From IMG/VR virus record IMGVR_UViG_3300036760_000087, positions 1-21,082 of that record: DNA of 21,082 bases. One strand, 5' to 3'. Of the stretch, positions 12,706 through 21,082 are shown in pieces. The notes beneath the pieces are model-generated. The model was not told where the DNA came from. It made no database searches and was given only the letters and a program-made list of their open reading frames with translations. The stretch comes from a virus. Both the position numbers and the translations under genes were made by a program. The number at the start of each line of letters is the position of its first letter. Position 1 is the first letter of the stretch.

Positions 12706-13100
12706 ACATAAAGCGTGAGGATATAGCATGGCTGGCTGGTATTATCGAAGGAGAAGGGTCCATTACTGGCGTGTCTGAAAACCTTAAGAAACATCAGCGC
12801 AAAACATATCGTGTAGTTGTTGAGATGGTTGACGAAGACATCATCAGGAGATGCCAGACTATCTTCGGTTACGGTCAAATTAGAAAAGTCAATCCACGAG
12901 GGCTGGGTAAGCAAATTCGCTACGTTTGGGACGTAAGCAATAGATCGAAAGTATACTCGTTAATATCTATGATTTATCCTTGGCTCGGGACGCGGAGAAA
13001 AACACGAGCTAAGGAAGCATTGCTCAATCTGCCACCTACGTCGTACCCTAAAGGAATCAAAAGACCACGATGCAAGAACCCTACAAACGAAATTGGCTAA
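12702..13100 (+). CDS. LAGLIDADG-type homing endonuclease (single motif)
   Basis: The 132-residue protein has one signature WLAGIIEGEGSI at 10-21, where E18 is the catalytic acidic residue. The rest fits the single-domain fold: a beta strand (YRVVVEMVDEDIIRRCQTIFG), then IRYVWDVSNRSKVYSLISMIYPWLGTRRKTRAKEAL. One motif implies action as a homodimer. It is free-standing, directly downstream of thyX, and contains no CTAG, like the other two endonuclease genes. The C-terminal 31 bases overlap the next gene in another frame. Start and stop are both supported by overlaps, with ATGA at the 5' side. Confidence 0.85.
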   Translation: MNIKREDIAWLAGIIEGEGSITGVSENLKKHQRKTYRVVVEMVDEDIIRRCQTIFGYGQIRKVNPRGLGKQIRYVWDVSNRSKVYSLISMIYPWLGTRRKTRAKEALLNLPPTSYPKGIKRPRCKNPTNEIG

Positions 13101-13525
13101 CGAAAGTAGATATATACCGTAGACCTGGAGAGTTGTATCTTACTCGTTACGTTATCTTTAGGTGTAAATGGTTTAGTTGGTATATTCATCAGTTCCATAT
13201 TTCAGATTATACTACACCGCACGATCACCCTTGGTGGTGGCTGGCAATGCCTTTGAAGTTAGGATACATGGAACACTTTCCAGACGGTACAGTCGTAGAA
13301 CGAAAACCCTTCCATCCGGCAGTTAGAGCGCCTAGAGATTTTCACTGGGTTGAATTAAAGTCTGGGACCGAGGGAAAAGTTTGGACATTGTTTTTAACTG
13401 GTCCTAGAGTTAGAGAGTGGGGCTTCCTAACTAAGATGGGCTGGATACAGCACGAGAACTATCAATTGATTTTAGACGCTGATGCTAAACATAAAGCACA
13501 GTATATTAGGGACGAAGGGCTATGA
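13070..13525 (+). CDS. Cupin-like phage protein of unknown function
   Basis: The 151-residue protein has a likely double-stranded beta-helix: IHQFHISDYTTPHDHPWWW gives H51-x-H53, then GYMEHF with E68, and a second motif RAPRDFHWVEL with H92, a usual metal-ligand arrangement for cupins. TLFLTGPRVREWGFL (107-120) is a conserved-looking end that I recall in cupin-like proteins of other phages. No substrate can be proposed. The ATG at 13070 overlaps the LAGLIDADG gene by 31 bases with only a distant AAAGGA, so the start is less certain than the stop, which overlaps the next ATG (13522-13525). Confidence 0.65.
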   Translation: MQEPYKRNWLTKVDIYRRPGELYLTRYVIFRCKWFSWYIHQFHISDYTTPHDHPWWWLAMPLKLGYMEHFPDGTVVERKPFHPAVRAPRDFHWVELKSGTEGKVWTLFLTGPRVREWGFLTKMGWIQHENYQLILDADAKHKAQYIRDEGL

Positions 13526-14598
13526 AACAAGGCTTAACTTTCGACGACGTGGCACTAGTGCCTGTTTTTAATAACGTGGAGTCCAGGACGGAGCCCTGCA
13601 CTGTGACTAATCTAACGCCAAACATTAAGATGGACGTTCCGATCTTAGCCTCCAACATGGACTCGGTAATAGGGCCGGACCTGGCTAAAGTACTAGTGGG
13701 CGCAGGAAGCGTGCCAATCTTCCATCGCTTCACAACCTTTGAACAGAAGGTGGCGTGGATAAAAGCGTTCCCTAGTTCCTTCCTATCCTGCGGCATTAGA
13801 GTCGGAGACGTTATTGAGCTAGAGAAACTGTTAGAGGAGACCCAACTAGTTGGGGTGTGTTTCGACATAGCTCACGGCCACGACATGAGGCTCATTAGCA
13901 CCATCGCAACTCTTAAAAACAAGTACCCAGAGCTAGAGATCATAGCTGGAAATGTTTGCACTGCTGATGCTTATAGGGATCTTGTGTTTGCTGGTGCCAC
14001 GGCTGTCAAAGTCGGCATCGGTCCAGGGGCGGCTTGCACGACTAGAAAGGTTACGGGCTTCGGGGTTCCCCAATTTACAGCTATCCAAGAGATTGCGGCC
14101 ATCAAGAAAAAACTCCTTGTACCTATCATTGCTGACGGAGGAATCCGAGGCTCCGCAGATATAGTAAAGGCGCTGGCTGCCGGCGCCGACTCGGTTATGC
14201 TCGGCAAGCTGTTCGCCTTAACCAATGAAAGTGCGGCGCCTAAACGAGGAATACCAGGCTTACCAGGCTTACCAGGCTTACCAGGCAGCGTACAGCTAAT
14301 CCCAAAAAGGGAACTGTATCGCTGGAATGGCCCTTATGAGGCCAAGTATCGAGGGCAGGCCAGCGCTGACTTCCAAGAAGACTACTTCGGAGCTACCAAG
14401 GATGGTACGGTCCCTGAGGGCGAAGCTTTCTGGGCTAGCGTATCCGGTCCGGCCATAGACTTGATTCAAAGGCTAATGGCCGGGTTGCGCAGTGGGATGA
14501 CCTATGGTGGTGCTCGCACCATCGGAGAGTTGCAACGGAAGGCCGAGTTCATCCAAGTGACCGGCAACTATGAAGCCGAGTCCAGTCCGCGCCCATGA
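13522..14598 (+). CDS. IMP dehydrogenase / GMP reductase family enzyme without CBS domains
   Basis: The 358-residue TIM-barrel protein begins with the family start LTFDDVALVP and has ASNMDSV (43-49), KVGIGPGAACTTRKVTGFGVPQ with catalytic C172, IIADGGIRGSADIVKALAAGADSVMLG (202-228), and GLRSGMTYGGARTIGEL near the end. No CBS pair is inserted after the second strand, so it is GMP-reductase-sized. TTRKVTG leans to GMP reductase and the VTG...ESSPRP ending to IMP dehydrogenase; the reaction (IMP to XMP, or GMP to IMP) is not settled. Residues 243-255 read GIPGLPGLPGLPG, a collagen-like repeat in the loop just after the phosphate-binding segment and before the mobile flap YRG. It would adjust the phage guanine nucleotide supply. 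The start overlaps the cupin gene (ATGA). Confidence 0.88.
   Translation: MKQGLTFDDVALVPVFNNVESRTEPCTVTNLTPNIKMDVPILASNMDSVIGPDLAKVLVGAGSVPIFHRFTTFEQKVAWIKAFPSSFLSCGIRVGDVIELEKLLEETQLVGVCFDIAHGHDMRLISTIATLKNKYPELEIIAGNVCTADAYRDLVFAGATAVKVGIGPGAACTTRKVTGFGVPQFTAIQEIAAIKKKLLVPIIADGGIRGSADIVKALAAGADSVMLGKLFALTNESAAPKRGIPGLPGLPGLPGSVQLIPKRELYRWNGPYEAKYRGQASADFQEDYFGATKDGTVPEGEAFWASVSGPAIDLIQRLMAGLRSGMTYGGARTIGELQRKAEFIQVTGNYEAESSPRP
14251..14286 (+). repeat. 9-bp tandem repeat (four units) within the IMPDH/GMPR gene
   Basis: The unit TTACCAGGC is repeated three times exactly (14260-14286) after one copy with A as first base (14251-14259). Each unit encodes Leu-Pro-Gly (Ile-Pro-Gly in the first). 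Being a multiple of three it can change copy number without breaking the frame. Confidence 0.95.
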
Positions 14599-14724: not shown

Positions 14725-15141
14725 ATGAAACCAAGCGAAGCAGTCCACGAATTCCATTCCAAGTTCAGTATCCCAAAGGCTCACCCGTCGGACGTTAAAT
14801 CTGTAGCTTTCAGGATGTGCTTGATCCGTGAAGAATTTGATGAAGTGCTCGAAGCCGCAGGGTTCGTGTTGACAGGCTTCGCCTGTGACAGCCCTAACTT
14901 TGAAGTCCTGGACGGAAGCGACTGCAATAAGGAGCACCTCTTAAAAGAGCTAGCCGATCTAACTTATGTTATTTACGGCACGGCCGAGGCATTCGGGTGG
15001 GATCTAGACGAGGCTATCAAACGGGTTCACGCGAGCAACATGACGAAACTGGGCGTGGACGGTAAGCCTATGTATCGTGGAGACGGAAAGGTAATGAAGG
15101 GCCCAAATTATAAGGAACCATATTTAGGAGATTTAGTATGA
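14725..15141 (+). CDS. MazG-like nucleoside triphosphate pyrophosphohydrolase
   Basis: The 138-residue all-alpha pyrophosphohydrolase should hydrolyse NTPs or dNTPs to monophosphate and pyrophosphate. The metal-binding pattern is REEFDE (E36, E37, E40) followed by KELADLTYVIYGTAEAFG (E75, D78). The ending EAIKRVHASNMTKLG-DGKPMYRGDGKVMKGPNYKEP is characteristic of the phosphoribosyl-ATP pyrophosphohydrolase-like branch common in phages. ATG 14725 is preceded by GAAGG four bases upstream; the in-frame GTG at 14686 would overlap the zinc peptide and add an unconserved start. It sits with IMPDH/GMPR and DUF3310 genes, suggesting nucleotide-pool control. Confidence 0.85.
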   Translation: MKPSEAVHEFHSKFSIPKAHPSDVKSVAFRMCLIREEFDEVLEAAGFVLTGFACDSPNFEVLDGSDCNKEHLLKELADLTYVIYGTAEAFGWDLDEAIKRVHASNMTKLGVDGKPMYRGDGKVMKGPNYKEPYLGDLV

Positions 15142-15710
15142 AGGTAGCATTTATGGGAGAGCTAGAGAGTGCAATCGCTGAATGGGTGTCGAAGAACGGC
15201 CCTACCGATCGTGCCTGTGTAGGTACAAAATTCGCGCCGTTTTGGGACCACGATAGGTCCGGCGGTGTCCAAAATGCTGTTGATAATCTGATAAAACAGG
15301 GCGTCTTGATAATGGATGACGGCCGTCTTAGTTTCAAAGACATTGAAGACGATGAAAGCGAGACTGGAGCCCCCTCTAAGGAGGCGGTGACTCCGCTCAG
15401 TGTGCTAGAAAACTGGATAGGAAGCAAGGCCACAGCCGAGTTTATGCAGACGCTAGCCACGCCAAAAGAAGACGATGTAAGCGCGGACGTGTTTCAGAAC
15501 CCTGCTGTTCATAGTCCGCCCCACTATACTCGCGGAGGCATTGAGACCATTGACTTCATTGAAGCTAAGGGCCTGAACTTCCACCTAGGCAACGTCGTAA
15601 AGTATGTCTCCCGCGCTGGCTTCAAGCAAGACGCTGTGATTCAGGACCTAGAGAAGTCCCTCTGGTACTTGACCCGCGAAATAAATAGACTCAAGAAACA
15701 GGAAGTCTAA
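15138..15710 (+). CDS. DUF3310 protein (T7 gp1.7-like) with N-terminal winged-helix-like region
   Basis: The 190-residue protein has DUF3310 at residues 125-187: SPPHYTRGGIETIDFIEAKG, NVVKYVSRAG and DLEKSLWYLTREINRLK. T7 gp1.7, the studied relative, is a nucleotide kinase for dGMP/dTMP; the same role here is inference. Residues 7-66 (ESAIAEWVSKNGP...GGVQNAVDNLIKQGVLIMDDGRLSF) look like a winged helix, joined by an acidic linker (DIEDDESE). The TAGGAG at 15125-15130, seven bases before ATG 15138, is among the best ribosome sites in the window, and the start also overlaps the previous stop. The end overlaps the large glycosyltransferase start by one base (TAATG). Confidence 0.8.
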   Translation: MKVAFMGELESAIAEWVSKNGPTDRACVGTKFAPFWDHDRSGGVQNAVDNLIKQGVLIMDDGRLSFKDIEDDESETGAPSKEAVTPLSVLENWIGSKATAEFMQTLATPKEDDVSADVFQNPAVHSPPHYTRGGIETIDFIEAKGLNFHLGNVVKYVSRAGFKQDAVIQDLEKSLWYLTREINRLKKQEV

Positions 15711-18700
15711 TGGCATTTCGTGGCAAAGAATGGCAGCCTCCTATAATGGAGGAGGTTGGGAGTTTCATCAAAGATCGTATGTCTTTGACGGAACTCTCCA
15801 TGGACTCCTTGAAAGAGGTAATGTCGTATGCTCAGTTCGAGGCTCTTACAACCGGCGCTGAGGCTGCGCTGCAAGGCGATCTAAACGAAGGCGTTGAAAA
15901 CCTTCGTCTGGTTAACAATACATATTACCATAATATGAAACAGTTTGCCGCTACTGTCGGCAAGGCCGAGACCGTTAATATAGTTCTGCCTGTATATAAT
16001 TCCCTACATTTGGTCAGAGAGTGCATAGCTGCGGTGGTTAAAGAGACCCACTGGCCATACCATCTTACGATCGTGGATGATGCCAGTGATAAGCACACCA
16101 ATGATGAGTTAGCAAAGATAGTAGCTAAGTATCCGGAAACTATGACGCTTCTGACTAACAGAAAGAACAGAGGTTTCTCGGCTACGGTCAATCGCGGTGT
16201 CAAATTCTATGAGGCACAGAGCAGATACACTTGCTACCTCAACTCAGACGTGCTAGTTACCCCTTACTGGTTAACGAAGCTGGTCATGGCGCTAGTCTCA
16301 AATCCCCGTAACAAGATCGTCAACCCTACTACAAACAACACAGCCGTTATCAATGTTAACATGAGCCCCGGCTACAATTATCAGGCCATGAACACGATCC
16401 TGGAACAAACTAGCACTCGTCGCTATCCGGAGATCATGCCGACCGGCTTTTGCTTCTTGTTCGCCAACAGCCTCATCAAACAGATAGGCTATCTAGACGA
16501 GGCGTATCAGAACTTTGGTGAGGAGACCGACTTCTGGATGCGCACGATTACATGGAGCGACGGTAAGACCTTCGATCGCTGGCGCGCAGTCCTCGCAGAT
16601 GACACCTACGTCTTCCACCAGAGAGGTGCAAGCTACGCCACGCTAGGGGAGGAGCAGCACCTGAACTTTCGGAAGATGGCCAGTGGCCGTTTCCGACAAA
16701 CGTGGCCGTCTTGGGGTTTGTGGAACGAAGCTATCGGCACGAAGTCTATTGACCGCCTACGAAAGTCACACAGCACTAGAGAACTCAATAGCCTTAACGT
16801 TCAGGCTATTAAGCCTTCGGTATGTTTCGTCACTCATAGCACCGAAGCTTGTGGCGGAATGCACTACATCGCCGACATTGTCAATCAGATCAACGCTCTC
16901 GGAGGAGATGCCAGAGTAGTACAAATCCTTCGTGAAGGTAAGCCTGCCGGGGAGGCAGCCGGAGAGCTGCGCTCTGCCCCTATCGTCTTTGCGACCCTTG
17001 AGACCTTTCTCTTGAAGTTTGCCAGCTCCGTCTTTGAAAGCGGAGTTGTCATAGCGGCAACTTCAGAACTCGCGCCGCATGTAGCAGCCTTGTGCGCAAA
17101 CAACCCGAAGCTGACACCTGTGCTACACGTTCAATCTTACGAGCCTGCGCTTGTGCCCGAGCCAGAAGAGTCAAAGAGGTTGGAAGAGAACTTCAACAAG
17201 ATACCGACTGTCATCAGCAGCTCTTCGTGGATCACAGAAGAGCTTAAGTCTCTGCCACAATTCGCCGGTAATATCGTAGACACCATCAACCCTGGTGTTG
17301 ACAGAGATATCTTCTACGAGGGGGATCGCACACTAGGCGACGATCGTCCTACAGTAATGCTCAATATCAATGCACAATATCCGTTCAAAGGTGCAGAACG
17401 CGGTCTACTTTTTGCTCAGACTCTCCTCGCGCTAGCCCATAAGAACAACAAAGAACTTAGAATATTAGCATTGAATGTTAAAGAAATTACTGGCGCTCCT
17501 GCCATACTTTGTCAAGGGCAGCTTCCTCGCACGAGGGTCGCGAGATTGCTAGCTACAGAGGTAGATCTTTTCGTAGACCCTGCTTTGAACCACTCTTACG
17601 GTATGCCAATGCTAGAGGCTATAGCTTGTGGGGTGCCGGTACTAGGCTGGGATAACCGTGGTATTAGAGAGTATCTACCTAAGGGTTACATGGAAAGTGA
17701 TGTCATTGTTCCTAATACTGTCACGCCCCAAAAACTAGCTGAGCTAGCTTACAAAGTTCTGTTCGCGGATGGAGCCCTAGCTAAACTAGCAGCTCGACAA
17801 ACCAAAATTGCAATGATCGATGCACACGACAGAAAGGTAAGCGTAGATAGGTTTATAGACTGCTTGCAATCGACCTTTAGCTCCAGGTCAGAACGTAAGA
17901 AGATTGTAGTTGTCACTCCTCACTTGCGAAAGCATGGCGGTCCAACGACCATTCTTACGATAGCCAATGAGCTAGCTAAGCAGGGGCACGATGTTTCAAT
18001 TGCGTCTGTATACTCGGACTTGAATCCGGAGGTTGTCAAGTTTACTGATTTGCCGATCATACTACTTAACCAAGACCCGACAAAGATTCCGCCTTGCGAC
18101 CTACTGATAACCAACTCAGATAACCCACTCAATCCTAGCTTCTCGCAGACGTGTCCCCAAGCCAAGAAAACAATAATGCTAAAATTGAGCCACAACCCTC
18201 GCTTCAAAGCTCTAGAAGAGGCTGGCTTGAACTGCAAGTGGGATGCCGTCGTGACTAGCAGCCAGTGGCTTGCAGACGCGTGCAAGACACCTACTATAGG
18301 CTGGAACTACCCTTCCGTGGAGGCGACGCGCATAGGTTGGTTCCATTATAACTTCGAGACTATGCGCCGGAACCCTAAGCGCAAAAAGATCCGAACACTT
18401 AGTGCAGTTGACCCTGTTGTAATAACGACGCTCATCCACGGGCATATTAGCAAAGGCTCGGCCGACGCCGGCAACGTCTTTGCCGCTATAAAGAAGGTGC
18501 ACGGTGACAAGGTTAAGATGTACGGTGTCGGGGAAATACGCCCTGCCGAAGTAAAGCTGTCTATCCCTGGTATGGAGTATGTTTATCATCCTTCTCGCGA
18601 TGAGATGGCTGAGCTAATGTTCAAGACCGATATTTGGCTAAGTTGCAGTCACGGAGAAGGACTCGGGCGCATGGCGCTGGAGGCTATGACGGGTCTCGCA

Positions 18701-18925
18701 GCTTGTGTCCTCACTGATACCGGGGCCGAGTATGTAGTTGATGGTACGAACGCATTGGTTGCGCCAGTCGGGGATCTAAACGGCTTAGCAAACCACATCA
18801 ACACGTTACTTCTAGACCATCAGTTGCGTCGCGACATCGCGCAGGCAGGGTTTCAAACCGCAAAGGTTATGTCAGAACCAGGCGATCTGATAGAGAAACT
18901 TGAAGAAGTAATTGCCAATGTCTAA
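15710..18925 (+). CDS. Three-module glycosyltransferase (GT-A + GT-B + GT-B)
   Basis: This 1071-residue protein carries three sugar-transfer modules. Residues 1-85 have no recognised domain. Residues 88-340 are a GT2-type GT-A fold: IVLPVYN, IVDDASD (D123, D124), NRGFSATVNRG, the metal-site motif NSD 178-180, and FGEETDFWMR (269-278). Residues 370-720 are a GT4-like GT-B fold: VCFVTHSTEACGGMHYIADI, NPGVD, and HSYGMPMLEAIACGVPVLG, with E636 present but His628 where the first Glu of E-x7-E would be. Residues 731-1068 are a second GT-B: VVVTPHLRKHGGPTTILTIANELAKQGH and HGEGLGRMALEAMTG with both E983 and E991. No signal peptide or membrane segment is visible, so it acts in the cytoplasm. AGGA at 15700-15703 supports the start. 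It may build or transfer a glycan; donors and acceptor are unknown. Confidence 0.85.
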   Translation: MAFRGKEWQPPIMEEVGSFIKDRMSLTELSMDSLKEVMSYAQFEALTTGAEAALQGDLNEGVENLRLVNNTYYHNMKQFAATVGKAETVNIVLPVYNSLHLVRECIAAVVKETHWPYHLTIVDDASDKHTNDELAKIVAKYPETMTLLTNRKNRGFSATVNRGVKFYEAQSRYTCYLNSDVLVTPYWLTKLVMALVSNPRNKIVNPTTNNTAVINVNMSPGYNYQAMNTILEQTSTRRYPEIMPTGFCFLFANSLIKQIGYLDEAYQNFGEETDFWMRTITWSDGKTFDRWRAVLADDTYVFHQRGASYATLGEEQHLNFRKMASGRFRQTWPSWGLWNEAIGTKSIDRLRKSHSTRELNSLNVQAIKPSVCFVTHSTEACGGMHYIADIVNQINALGGDARVVQILREGKPAGEAAGELRSAPIVFATLETFLLKFASSVFESGVVIAATSELAPHVAALCANNPKLTPVLHVQSYEPALVPEPEESKRLEENFNKIPTVISSSSWITEELKSLPQFAGNIVDTINPGVDRDIFYEGDRTLGDDRPTVMLNINAQYPFKGAERGLLFAQTLLALAHKNNKELRILALNVKEITGAPAILCQGQLPRTRVARLLATEVDLFVDPALNHSYGMPMLEAIACGVPVLGWDNRGIREYLPKGYMESDVIVPNTVTPQKLAELAYKVLFADGALAKLAARQTKIAMIDAHDRKVSVDRFIDCLQSTFSSRSERKKIVVVTPHLRKHGGPTTILTIANELAKQGHDVSIASVYSDLNPEVVKFTDLPIILLNQDPTKIPPCDLLITNSDNPLNPSFSQTCPQAKKTIMLKLSHNPRFKALEEAGLNCKWDAVVTSSQWLADACKTPTIGWNYPSVEATRIGWFHYNFETMRRNPKRKKIRTLSAVDPVVITTLIHGHISKGSADAGNVFAAIKKVHGDKVKMYGVGEIRPAEVKLSIPGMEYVYHPSRDEMAELMFKTDIWLSCSHGEGLGRMALEAMTGLAACVLTDTGAEYVVDGTNALVAPVGDLNGLANHINTLLLDHQLRRDIAQAGFQTAKVMSEPGDLIEKLEEVIANV

Positions 18926-19673
18926 ATTCAGCGAGGGAATAGCAATTTGTACCTATAACCGAGGCGATCAATTAGCCAAGGTTATCCAGGCTGTGTTAGA
19001 CACGAAGCCAGAAGAGGCTCGCGTAGTAGTATGCGACGACGGTAGCACAGATAATACTATGGAAGTGATGGGCAGATTCCCAGAGATTACCTTTCTTCGA
19101 GGCCCTAACAAGGGAGTAGGTGCTAATAAAAATCGCGCCGTGTATGCGTTACGCAATTATGACTTCATAACAATTCTTGAAGACGATCTTGTACCTATTG
19201 AAAGCGGCTGGTTTGAGATATATCGAGAGTTCTGTCTACACACGAATATCCACCACTTCTGTCGAGTTCAAGACAATTTTGTTGACGAAGTTGTGCCAGA
19301 CTTTGCGGTGTGGTGCCAGGATCGACTCAACATGACGCCTATTTACGGGCCACACCCTCGCGGGGATCTTACTTTCATTTCTAACATGACCGTTCGTAAA
19401 GTCGGTGCTTTTCACCCTGACTTTGTCGGTGTCGGCCACGCACACGGACAATGGAGCGATAGAGTTGTTACGGCCGGGCTAGTGCAGCACCCTAACAAAT
19501 GGGTCGATATCAAAGAAGCAGTCGCGAAGTTCATACAGATGGGAGATACCGCAGGGGGTCGATGGAATGCTAACCCAGTTGAGATTCAGAATCAAATAAA
19601 GAAAAACTCTAACTTGCGGAAGCTTCTAAGCGAGACCGAAACTAGACTTTATATTGAGCCGTTCCTACCGTGA
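18918..19673 (+). CDS. GT2-family glycosyltransferase
   Basis: The 251-residue GT-A enzyme begins with IAICTYNR, followed by VVVCDDGSTD (D40, D41) for nucleotide-sugar binding, NKGVGANKNRAVYAL, and ITILEDDLVP (EDD 88-90) as the metal-binding DxD equivalent. Later features include ISNMTVRKVGAFHPDFVGVGHAHGQWSDR, probably the acceptor and catalytic-base region. ATG 18918 overlaps the large glycosyltransferase stop by eight bases; a TTG six bases upstream is possible. The following gene starts on its stop codon (GTGA). It is soluble and presumably adds one sugar in the same pathway as its neighbours. Confidence 0.88.
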   Translation: MSKFSEGIAICTYNRGDQLAKVIQAVLDTKPEEARVVVCDDGSTDNTMEVMGRFPEITFLRGPNKGVGANKNRAVYALRNYDFITILEDDLVPIESGWFEIYREFCLHTNIHHFCRVQDNFVDEVVPDFAVWCQDRLNMTPIYGPHPRGDLTFISNMTVRKVGAFHPDFVGVGHAHGQWSDRVVTAGLVQHPNKWVDIKEAVAKFIQMGDTAGGRWNANPVEIQNQIKKNSNLRKLLSETETRLYIEPFLP

Positions 19674-20623
19674 AAATAGCACTTAGTTATAGAGTGGACT
19701 CGTATCCTGTAGGTGACACGACCCTGTCGGCTAAACAACTCGGCCGACTTGTTAGTGTCCCCGTTGAGACTTATTGTCAATCCGTTAGTAGGGCTTTCAA
19801 TAAGCTGGGGCACGAAACTACTAACGTGTACGGGTTAAATACAAAGTGGCGCCCTCAGGACTTCGACCTTTATATAGAACTAGACAATGGCCGCGATGGC
19901 AAAGGGCAATTAGGCTTTGGGCAACAGCTAAATCGTAGCGACATCCAACTCGATATACCCACGGCAGTTTGGTTCATTGACTCGCACGGGCAGCCAGATC
20001 TTCACAAAGCACTATCGGTTCATTACGATCATGTCTTCTTTGCTGTATGGGACAAGCGAGAACTATTCGCTGGCCATTCGTCGGCCCATTGGTGCCCTAA
20101 CGCCACGGACCCAGAGTTCTTCTTCCCTAAGGTAGTAGGCGAACCTGAATTTGACTTTGGCTTCTTTGGCTCTAAAACAGGGCTGGAACGTTCTGACCCT
20201 ATGGTTGAGATTTGCAAGAAACGCGGTTGGGCCTATGATGTTCGACAGGTAGGAGGCGGCTCAGGTAAACACAAGTGGCCTCGCACTTCCGACGCTATGA
20301 ACAACTGTCGCACTCTATTTAACCACGGACAAAAGCACGACGGACCTAACCTAAGAGTCGTGGAATCTATGGCCGTAGGCCGCCCGTTGATTACAGATAG
20401 CGACCCGCGAAGCGGGATGGACCGCCTGTTCACACCTGGGGAGCACTACCTGGGGTACACAGCGTACTCGTATCTTGGTCTAGAAGAGAAGATGGAATTC
20501 GCTATGGCCCACCAGGGTTGGTGCCATAGTATGGCTATGACTGCTCAGAAATTGGTACTAGAGAAGCACCTAGTAAAGCACCGCGTCGAGCAAATGATTG
20601 CGGTTTTTAATGCAACTGTATAA
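19670..20623 (+). CDS. CgeB-like GT-B glycosyltransferase
   Basis: The 317-residue protein starts at a GTG that overlaps the previous stop (GTGA). The N-terminal half is not strongly conserved (DLYIELDNGR, PTAVWFIDSHG at 97-107). The C-terminal half has the nucleotide-sugar binding pattern of the CgeB/GT1_2 group: FDFGFFGS (161-168), FNHGQKHDGPNLRVVESMAVGRPLITD with E232, and a following LFTPGEHYLGY. No membrane segment is visible. The family is used for sugar transfer to varied acceptors, and members are known in phages. Context in a run of four glycosyltransferase genes supports the call. Confidence 0.8.
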   Translation: MKIALSYRVDSYPVGDTTLSAKQLGRLVSVPVETYCQSVSRAFNKLGHETTNVYGLNTKWRPQDFDLYIELDNGRDGKGQLGFGQQLNRSDIQLDIPTAVWFIDSHGQPDLHKALSVHYDHVFFAVWDKRELFAGHSSAHWCPNATDPEFFFPKVVGEPEFDFGFFGSKTGLERSDPMVEICKKRGWAYDVRQVGGGSGKHKWPRTSDAMNNCRTLFNHGQKHDGPNLRVVESMAVGRPLITDSDPRSGMDRLFTPGEHYLGYTAYSYLGLEEKMEFAMAHQGWCHSMAMTAQKLVLEKHLVKHRVEQMIAVFNATV

Positions 20624-21082
20624 CCTAACCCCGGTGATACTAGTTTGCAATGACGAGTATTGGCTCCCATATTCCTTGGAGTCTTTAGCTGGCCATTTCA
20701 ATAGATTTGTAATTTACGACGTTGGCTCGACCGATAGGACCAAAGATATCATCGACTGGTTTGCCCAGAAGGAAAAGAAGCGCGCCGACTTGTTCATTCG
20801 CTACCTGCCGTTCGTACCCCCGGTAGTTCAGGGGGCTTTCCGTAACAGCATGATTGCAGAAGCCGAGTCGGAGTGGTACTTCATTGTAGATGCTGACGAG
20901 GTCTACAAGCCAGAAGCCTTGCGGAACATCGTTAGATCCGTCAATGACCGCACCAACGAGAAGCCCTATGGAGTAGTCCGAAGGTTAGAGGTAGTCGAAG
21001 GACTAACAGAAGCTTACGGCACGACAGAGTTCTTACCCCATCACCGCGTCTACCATCGCACTATGTATTGGAAGGGTACTCA
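20610..21082 (+). CDS. GT2-family glycosyltransferase (truncated by window end)
   Basis: The frame is open from ATG 20610 to the end of the window, giving 157 residues without a stop. It has the GT-A landmarks: TPVILVCNDEYWLPYSLES, then VIYDVGSTDRTKDII (D37, D42; the usual DDGS is DVGS), then WYFIVDADEVYKPEAL with the metal-binding D94-x-D96. The ATG overlaps the previous gene by 14 bases; GTG 20634 is an alternative start. The C-terminal part lies outside the window, so length and any extra domain are unknown. Confidence 0.85.
   Translation, partial: MQLYNLTPVILVCNDEYWLPYSLESLAGHFNRFVIYDVGSTDRTKDIIDWFAQKEKKRADLFIRYLPFVPPVVQGAFRNSMIAEAESEWYFIVDADEVYKPEALRNIVRSVNDRTNEKPYGVVRRLEVVEGLTEAYGTTEFLPHHRVYHRTMYWKGT

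Follow-up and report, generated by a model that had tools for sequence, protein, structure and literature searches.

A conserved three-module glycosyltransferase fusion in an uncultured tailed-phage lineage: a candidate builder of a virion glycan core

The PBCV-1 protein A111/114R carries three glycosyltransferase domains and is found in all chloroviruses (PMC7826918). This 860-residue protein of a eukaryotic algal virus has domains assigned as galactosyl-, xylosyl-, and fucosyltransferase, and its acceptor is the N-glycan of the major capsid protein. A111/114R is thought to place three of the five conserved core sugars of that glycan, and further variable sugars lie outside the core (PMC7826918). 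Among tailed phages, mycobacteriophages encode glycosyltransferases that modify their capsid and tail tube proteins (PMC12363180); virion glycosylation is described for Che8, Corndog, and Myrna (Freeman et al. 2023, as cited in PMC12363180, PMC11256854, and PMC12619734). In bacteria, the chondroitin polymerase K4CP (2z86) and the A. pleuropneumoniae serotype 3 capsule multienzyme (8qoy) hold several catalytic modules per chain and make surface polysaccharides.

The window analysed here is an entire IMG/VR record of 21,082 bases. Its fusion protein (P0001) is encoded on the plus strand by one uninterrupted frame (15710..18925; 1071 residues), which opens at the ATG at 15710, overlapping the stop of the preceding gene, and closes at the TAA at 18923-18925. 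The original prediction, made from the sequence alone, had given exactly this frame and length, and its four motifs (IVDDASD, NSD, LEAIACGVP, and E983-x7-E991) lie where it placed them. Its division into a GT-A and two GT-B units gains support from Pfam, profiles, and structure models, with two refinements: the first 83 residues belong to no glycosyltransferase module, and the E-x7-E motif of the second module is degenerate.

The protein comprises four parts, all on the plus strand: a helical leader without known domain (residues 1-83; 15710..15958); module 1, a GT2-like GT-A unit (about 84-366; 15959..16807); module 2, a GT4-like GT-B unit (about 367-724; 16808..17881); and module 3, a second GT4-like GT-B unit (about 728-1071; 17891..18922). 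The leader helices are modelled largely at low pLDDT, and the leader is poorly conserved except for W8 and a short N-terminal motif. Pfam places a GT2 domain (PF00535, E 1.2e-18) at residues 91-259, with 68 bits against a cut-off of 23.3, and finds two Glycos_transf_1/Glyco_trans_1_4 stretches at about 1e-20 to 1e-21. With E-values of 1e-18 to 1e-21, the module assignment is not due to chance. Profile comparison with the PDB matched module 1 to chondroitin synthase (1e-18, the nearest being K4CP) and module 3 to the GT4 structures 5i45, BshA, PglA, TarM, and Gtf1 (best 2e-16). Module 2 matched GT4-type enzymes at 1e-6, the weakest of the three against solved glycosyltransferases. An hhalign probability of 96.9 relates modules 2 and 3 to each other; module 1 shows no relation to either.

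Each module also carries recognizable motifs. In module 1 these are D123-D124 (within IVDDASD), N178-x-D180 (NSD, 178-180), G-E271-E272-T-D274, and H303; in module 2, GG at 382-383, K560, and H628-x7-E636 (E636 lying within LEAIACGVP); and in module 3, GG at 743-744, K915, and E983-x7-E991. Module 1 is classed as GT2-like by its Pfam score, its DD, DxD-like, and acidic catalytic motifs, and its GT-A fold; module 2 as GT4-like by fold and profile match; and module 3 by fold, profile match, and a complete E-x7-E.

Structure prediction, which had been proposed as the check on these modules, bore them out. The AlphaFold2 model of the whole fusion (20-sequence alignment; pLDDT 74.9) contains two clear GT-B folds, with module 2 mostly at pLDDT 80-94 and showing GT-B secondary structure. 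Residues 1-366, modelled from a deeper, 42-sequence alignment (pLDDT 81.4), gave a GT-A fold whose best Foldseek matches are GT-A enzymes, at E-values down to 1e-12. Polypeptide GalNAc-transferases head that list, but they are a lead only, given about 16% identity and the general resemblance among GT-A folds.

Searches of viral contigs with the fusion returned 23 loci and then 52; the final three in the longer list match other glycosyltransferases, partially and marginally. A further relative is a 119,592-base contig that was binned with a Deltaproteobacteria MAG and is a phage by gene content. The comparison set holds 44 full-length fusions including that of the window (42 distinct; 37 at 90% identity), with GC of about 36-60%, lengths of 1014-1120 residues (two probable inteins set aside), and pairwise identity of 45% at the median and 35% at the minimum. 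All 44 contain the same three modules. None of the relatives has them on separate genes, and the shorter family matches sit at contig ends. Nine residues are invariant in the set: D123, D124, N178, D180, E271, and H303 of module 1; E636 of module 2; and E983 and E991 of module 3. Among isolated phages, megablast of the region gave no match and tblastn with the fusion as query returned just two, at 10-11% coverage; thus no cultured relative was found. The region 15710-18925 encodes one polypeptide with three glycosyltransferase-like modules, whose catalytic residues are conserved.

One module, most likely module 2, could be catalytically dead and act as a scaffold or acceptor-binding domain, which would make the protein bifunctional. 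Module 2 is the least conserved of the three, its match to solved glycosyltransferases is the weakest, and it lacks a complete E-x7-E: His628 occupies the first position in 43 of the 44 sequences. Against this, neither the second Glu (E636) nor the GG loop varies, position 560 always holds Lys or Arg, and some GT4-like enzymes tolerate variation at the first Glu. We therefore consider a dead module unlikely; this judgement concerns catalysis and is separate from the choice of acceptor.

Three further glycosyltransferase genes follow on the plus strand, as predicted: GT2a, of the GT2 family (18918..19673, with ATG at 18918 and the ORF tool start at 18912; PF00535 2.4e-15, phrog_2456 7.7e-24); GTB, a GT-B enzyme with a GTG start (19670..20623; PF13524 Glyco_trans_1_2, 2.6e-15); and GT2b, again GT2-family (20610..21082, with ATG at 20610 and the ORF tool start at 20598; PF00535 1.3e-10), which the contig end cuts and which is complete, at about 250 residues, in relatives. 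Immediately upstream of the fusion and in the same operon is a DUF3310 gene (15138..15710, plus strand; PF11753 7.7e-17). The gene order is conserved: SSB, RecA/UvsX-like, SbcD, SbcC, ClpP-like protease, RNR, ThyX, other nucleotide genes, fusion, GT2a, GTB, and GT2b. The nucleotide operon ahead of the cassette includes RNR, ThyX, MazG, an IMPDH-like gene, and a dCMP deaminase or dNMP kinase. In relatives, the cassette runs head-on into an opposite-strand block that begins with a gene termed c15 and contains tail-like, internal virion protein, and major head protein (MCP) genes. The cassette is thus co-directional with the replication and nucleotide-metabolism operon, not with the virion genes. 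In several relatives (L025, L011, L062-L067) a peptide deformylase gene lies between GT2a and GTB. PADLOC gave no matches.

Because loci found with the fusion are biased toward having it, a second search used c15, so that loci were not chosen for the fusion; some proved to be records already in the fusion searches. Of its 30 loci, 25 have the fusion within the stretch and one (L107) further along the contig, and four end earlier. All 26 informative loci carry fusion, GT2a, GTB, and GT2b in that order, so the cassette belongs to the core genes of an uncultured lineage of tailed phages whose contigs reach about 120 kb. The lineage is coherent, since the capsid protein is 71-80% identical among four members of differing GC content; its gene lies outside the window and is found at L032:5207-6412 in the relative G002. 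The four-gene cassette is strictly linked to this one lineage and its virion genes. Two candidates from the same neighbourhood were dropped: c15 as a receptor-binding fibre, because it is about 1100-1500 residues long, helical-looking by eye, and has a weak tape-measure match in one relative; and the small ORFs c12 and c16, which follow the fusion, as acceptor peptides, because they are missing from the window's clade.

Relatives, synteny, structure models, and profile matches together support a dedicated multi-gene phage glycan pathway, as originally proposed. By analogy, its nearest functional precedent appears to be A111/114R. Both are viral proteins with three glycosyltransferase domains, conserved across their virus group, although the likeness is one of domain make-up and the chlorovirus protein differs in length, host, and assigned domains as noted above. 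Like the mycobacteriophages, these are tailed phages with their own glycosyltransferase genes, but the Che8 proteins gp108-110 are separate proteins, unlike the fusion. Comparison with gp108-110, a demonstrated system, gave no significant blastp match and no match of the GT2a, GTB, and GT2b HMMs, so a direct link between the cassette and the Che8 system was rejected. GT2a is the only cassette member with mycobacteriophage homologues, which are weak (24-29% identity) and include gp108 of Fancypants, also a Cheoctovirus. The bacterial synthases have a different module composition; Foldseek with the whole fusion chain ranks 8qoy first, at a low TM-score (0.25).

That phage glycosyltransferases are usually single-domain, a premise of the original prediction, holds only in part. 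Three-glycosyltransferase viral proteins were already known from A111/114R (PMC7826918), and Foldseek in BFVD retrieved long glycosyltransferase-annotated proteins of giant viruses and uncultured Caudovirales (A0A5K0UAG6, A0A0N9QZQ5, A0A6J5T3W3), some possibly multi-domain, at 8-17% identity over the best 50 matches. These are likened by length and annotation; a conserved GT-A + GT-B + GT-B cassette is known here only for the fusion. The literature searched, of incomplete coverage, contained no description of a phage three-glycosyltransferase fusion.

What might the cassette do? Fold, conserved residues, and operon structure suggest that the fusion is a soluble trifunctional glycosyltransferase whose GT-A and two GT-B modules would each add one sugar, in sequence, to give an oligosaccharide core. 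Of the two modes first proposed, the natural one is stepwise assembly on a single acceptor; processive synthesis finds no evidence in its favour. GT2a, GTB, and GT2b would then extend or branch the core. The acceptor would most likely be a phage structural protein, for example of capsid or tail, that receives its sugars in the cytoplasm of the infected cell, yielding a glycan-coated virion. A virion protein is favoured by four observations: the cassette is core, present in 26 of 26 informative loci as virion assembly would require; it is linked to virion genes; tailoring enzymes vary in the head region of some relatives; and none of the four cassette glycosyltransferases has a transmembrane segment. 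Three points count against it: the cassette is co-directional with the nucleotide operon, which would also fit a DNA target; its enzymes show no detectable homology to the Che8 proteins; and EX7E in module 2 is missing its first Glu. Weighing these, we give about an even chance to cytoplasmic glycosylation of a virion protein, in which the fusion would, in the manner of A111/114R, supply three sugars of a conserved oligosaccharide core. Activity of the enzymes, their donor sugars, the sequence of transfer, and the virion acceptor are here deduced from metagenome sequence and models of uncultured phages. If the virion is the target, the cassette would be a lineage-wide core glycosylation machine, suggesting an essential rather than accessory glycan coat, and the three-in-one enzyme a compact oligosaccharide assembler.

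The tailoring enzymes lie in a second, variable glycan locus. On the 119.6-kb contig (JAJFLM010000335.1; L030:7276-15627), a cluster directly after TerL encodes a sulfotransferase, a nucleotide-diphospho-sugar transferase, FkbM and Methyltransf_24 methyltransferases, a rhamnosyltransferase, GT17, GT2, and TOD1-like proteins. In G001, G010, G011, and G012 such a cluster directly follows TerL, and in G013 one adjoins the capsid gene; the sets in G010 through G013 are homologous to that of the 119.6-kb contig, yet different. Five of the other longer phage records contain NDP-sugar epimerase genes. The variable cluster is seen in some of the longer genomes; many shorter records are fragments that cannot be judged. 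Some relatives might thus tailor the core with methyl groups, sulfate, and extra sugars. We tentatively suggest, as a possibility somewhat short of even, that the lineage coats its virions with a heteroglycan: a constant core made by the fusion and its three partners and, in some members, rapidly exchanged methylated and sulfated outer parts. If true, this would be a phage counterpart of the core-plus-variable surface glycans of bacteria and chloroviruses, and a constant core with variable tailoring would imply that the chemistry of the virion surface is under selection.

The original prediction named virion proteins, DNA bases, and host surface glycans as possible targets; virion glycosylation is now favoured, and the other two are weakened. 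Glycosylation of phage DNA bases against restriction would require that a base first be hydroxylated or hydroxymethylated, and the oligosaccharide then be built upon it. The position of the cassette, after and co-directional with the nucleotide-metabolism operon, agrees with such a target, and DNA glycosyltransferases of viruses, with diverse glycans, have been reported (Pyle 2024, as cited in PMC12619734). The thymidylate synthase is ThyX, however, which argues weakly against it. Known dUMP and dCMP hydroxymethylases belong to the ThyA family; a member occurs in one of 15 virus records, and may be a plain thymidylate synthase. Tet_JBP was found in none of 16 records, most of them fragments, in a search without positive control. 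Sulfotransferases, FkbM-type methyltransferases, and epimerases better fit a protein or surface glycan, and a DNA target seems improbable.

Remodelling of host surface glycans during infection, for superinfection exclusion or receptor masking in the manner of O-antigen-converting phages, is equally improbable. Bacterial surface polysaccharides are usually made by GT2 and GT4 enzymes, and the module profiles match TarM, PglA, and WaaG. Yet two hallmarks of Gtr-type or lipid-linked surface synthesis are missing: the cassette proteins lack membrane segments, as noted, and PF02397, the lipid-carrier initiating transferase, occurs in no virus record searched. Presence in every informative member and linkage to virion genes are also unlike a lysogenic-conversion module. 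Last, an artefact of assembly or sequencing that fused separate genes, which a single metagenome contig and a length unusual for a phage glycosyltransferase might have suggested, can be dismissed, because the 44 full-length one-frame sequences, which come from many different assemblies and include one on a MAG contig, keep the modules together and none is split.

Other features of these genomes merit mention. In the window, an IMPDH/GMP-reductase-like gene (13522-14598), below the NCBIfam equivalog cut-offs, lies near a MazG-like gene, and a short gene (13070-13525) matches the PHROG 'cysteine dioxygenase' at 2e-30 and no Pfam family. The 119.6-kb relative encodes, on the minus strand, a family A DNA polymerase with an N-terminal uracil-DNA-glycosylase domain (L027:16448-19063). 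Finally, two fusion genes (L045:3943-8343 and L070:6807-11153) contain an in-frame insertion of about 390 residues at the GT-A motif GEE|(T/S)D. Both insertions have Hint-like ends with Met in place of Cys at position 1, and that of L045, on which the match was tested, resembles LAGLIDADG homing endonucleases (PF14528, 1e-8). The insertion is probably a non-canonical intein, perhaps of class 3.
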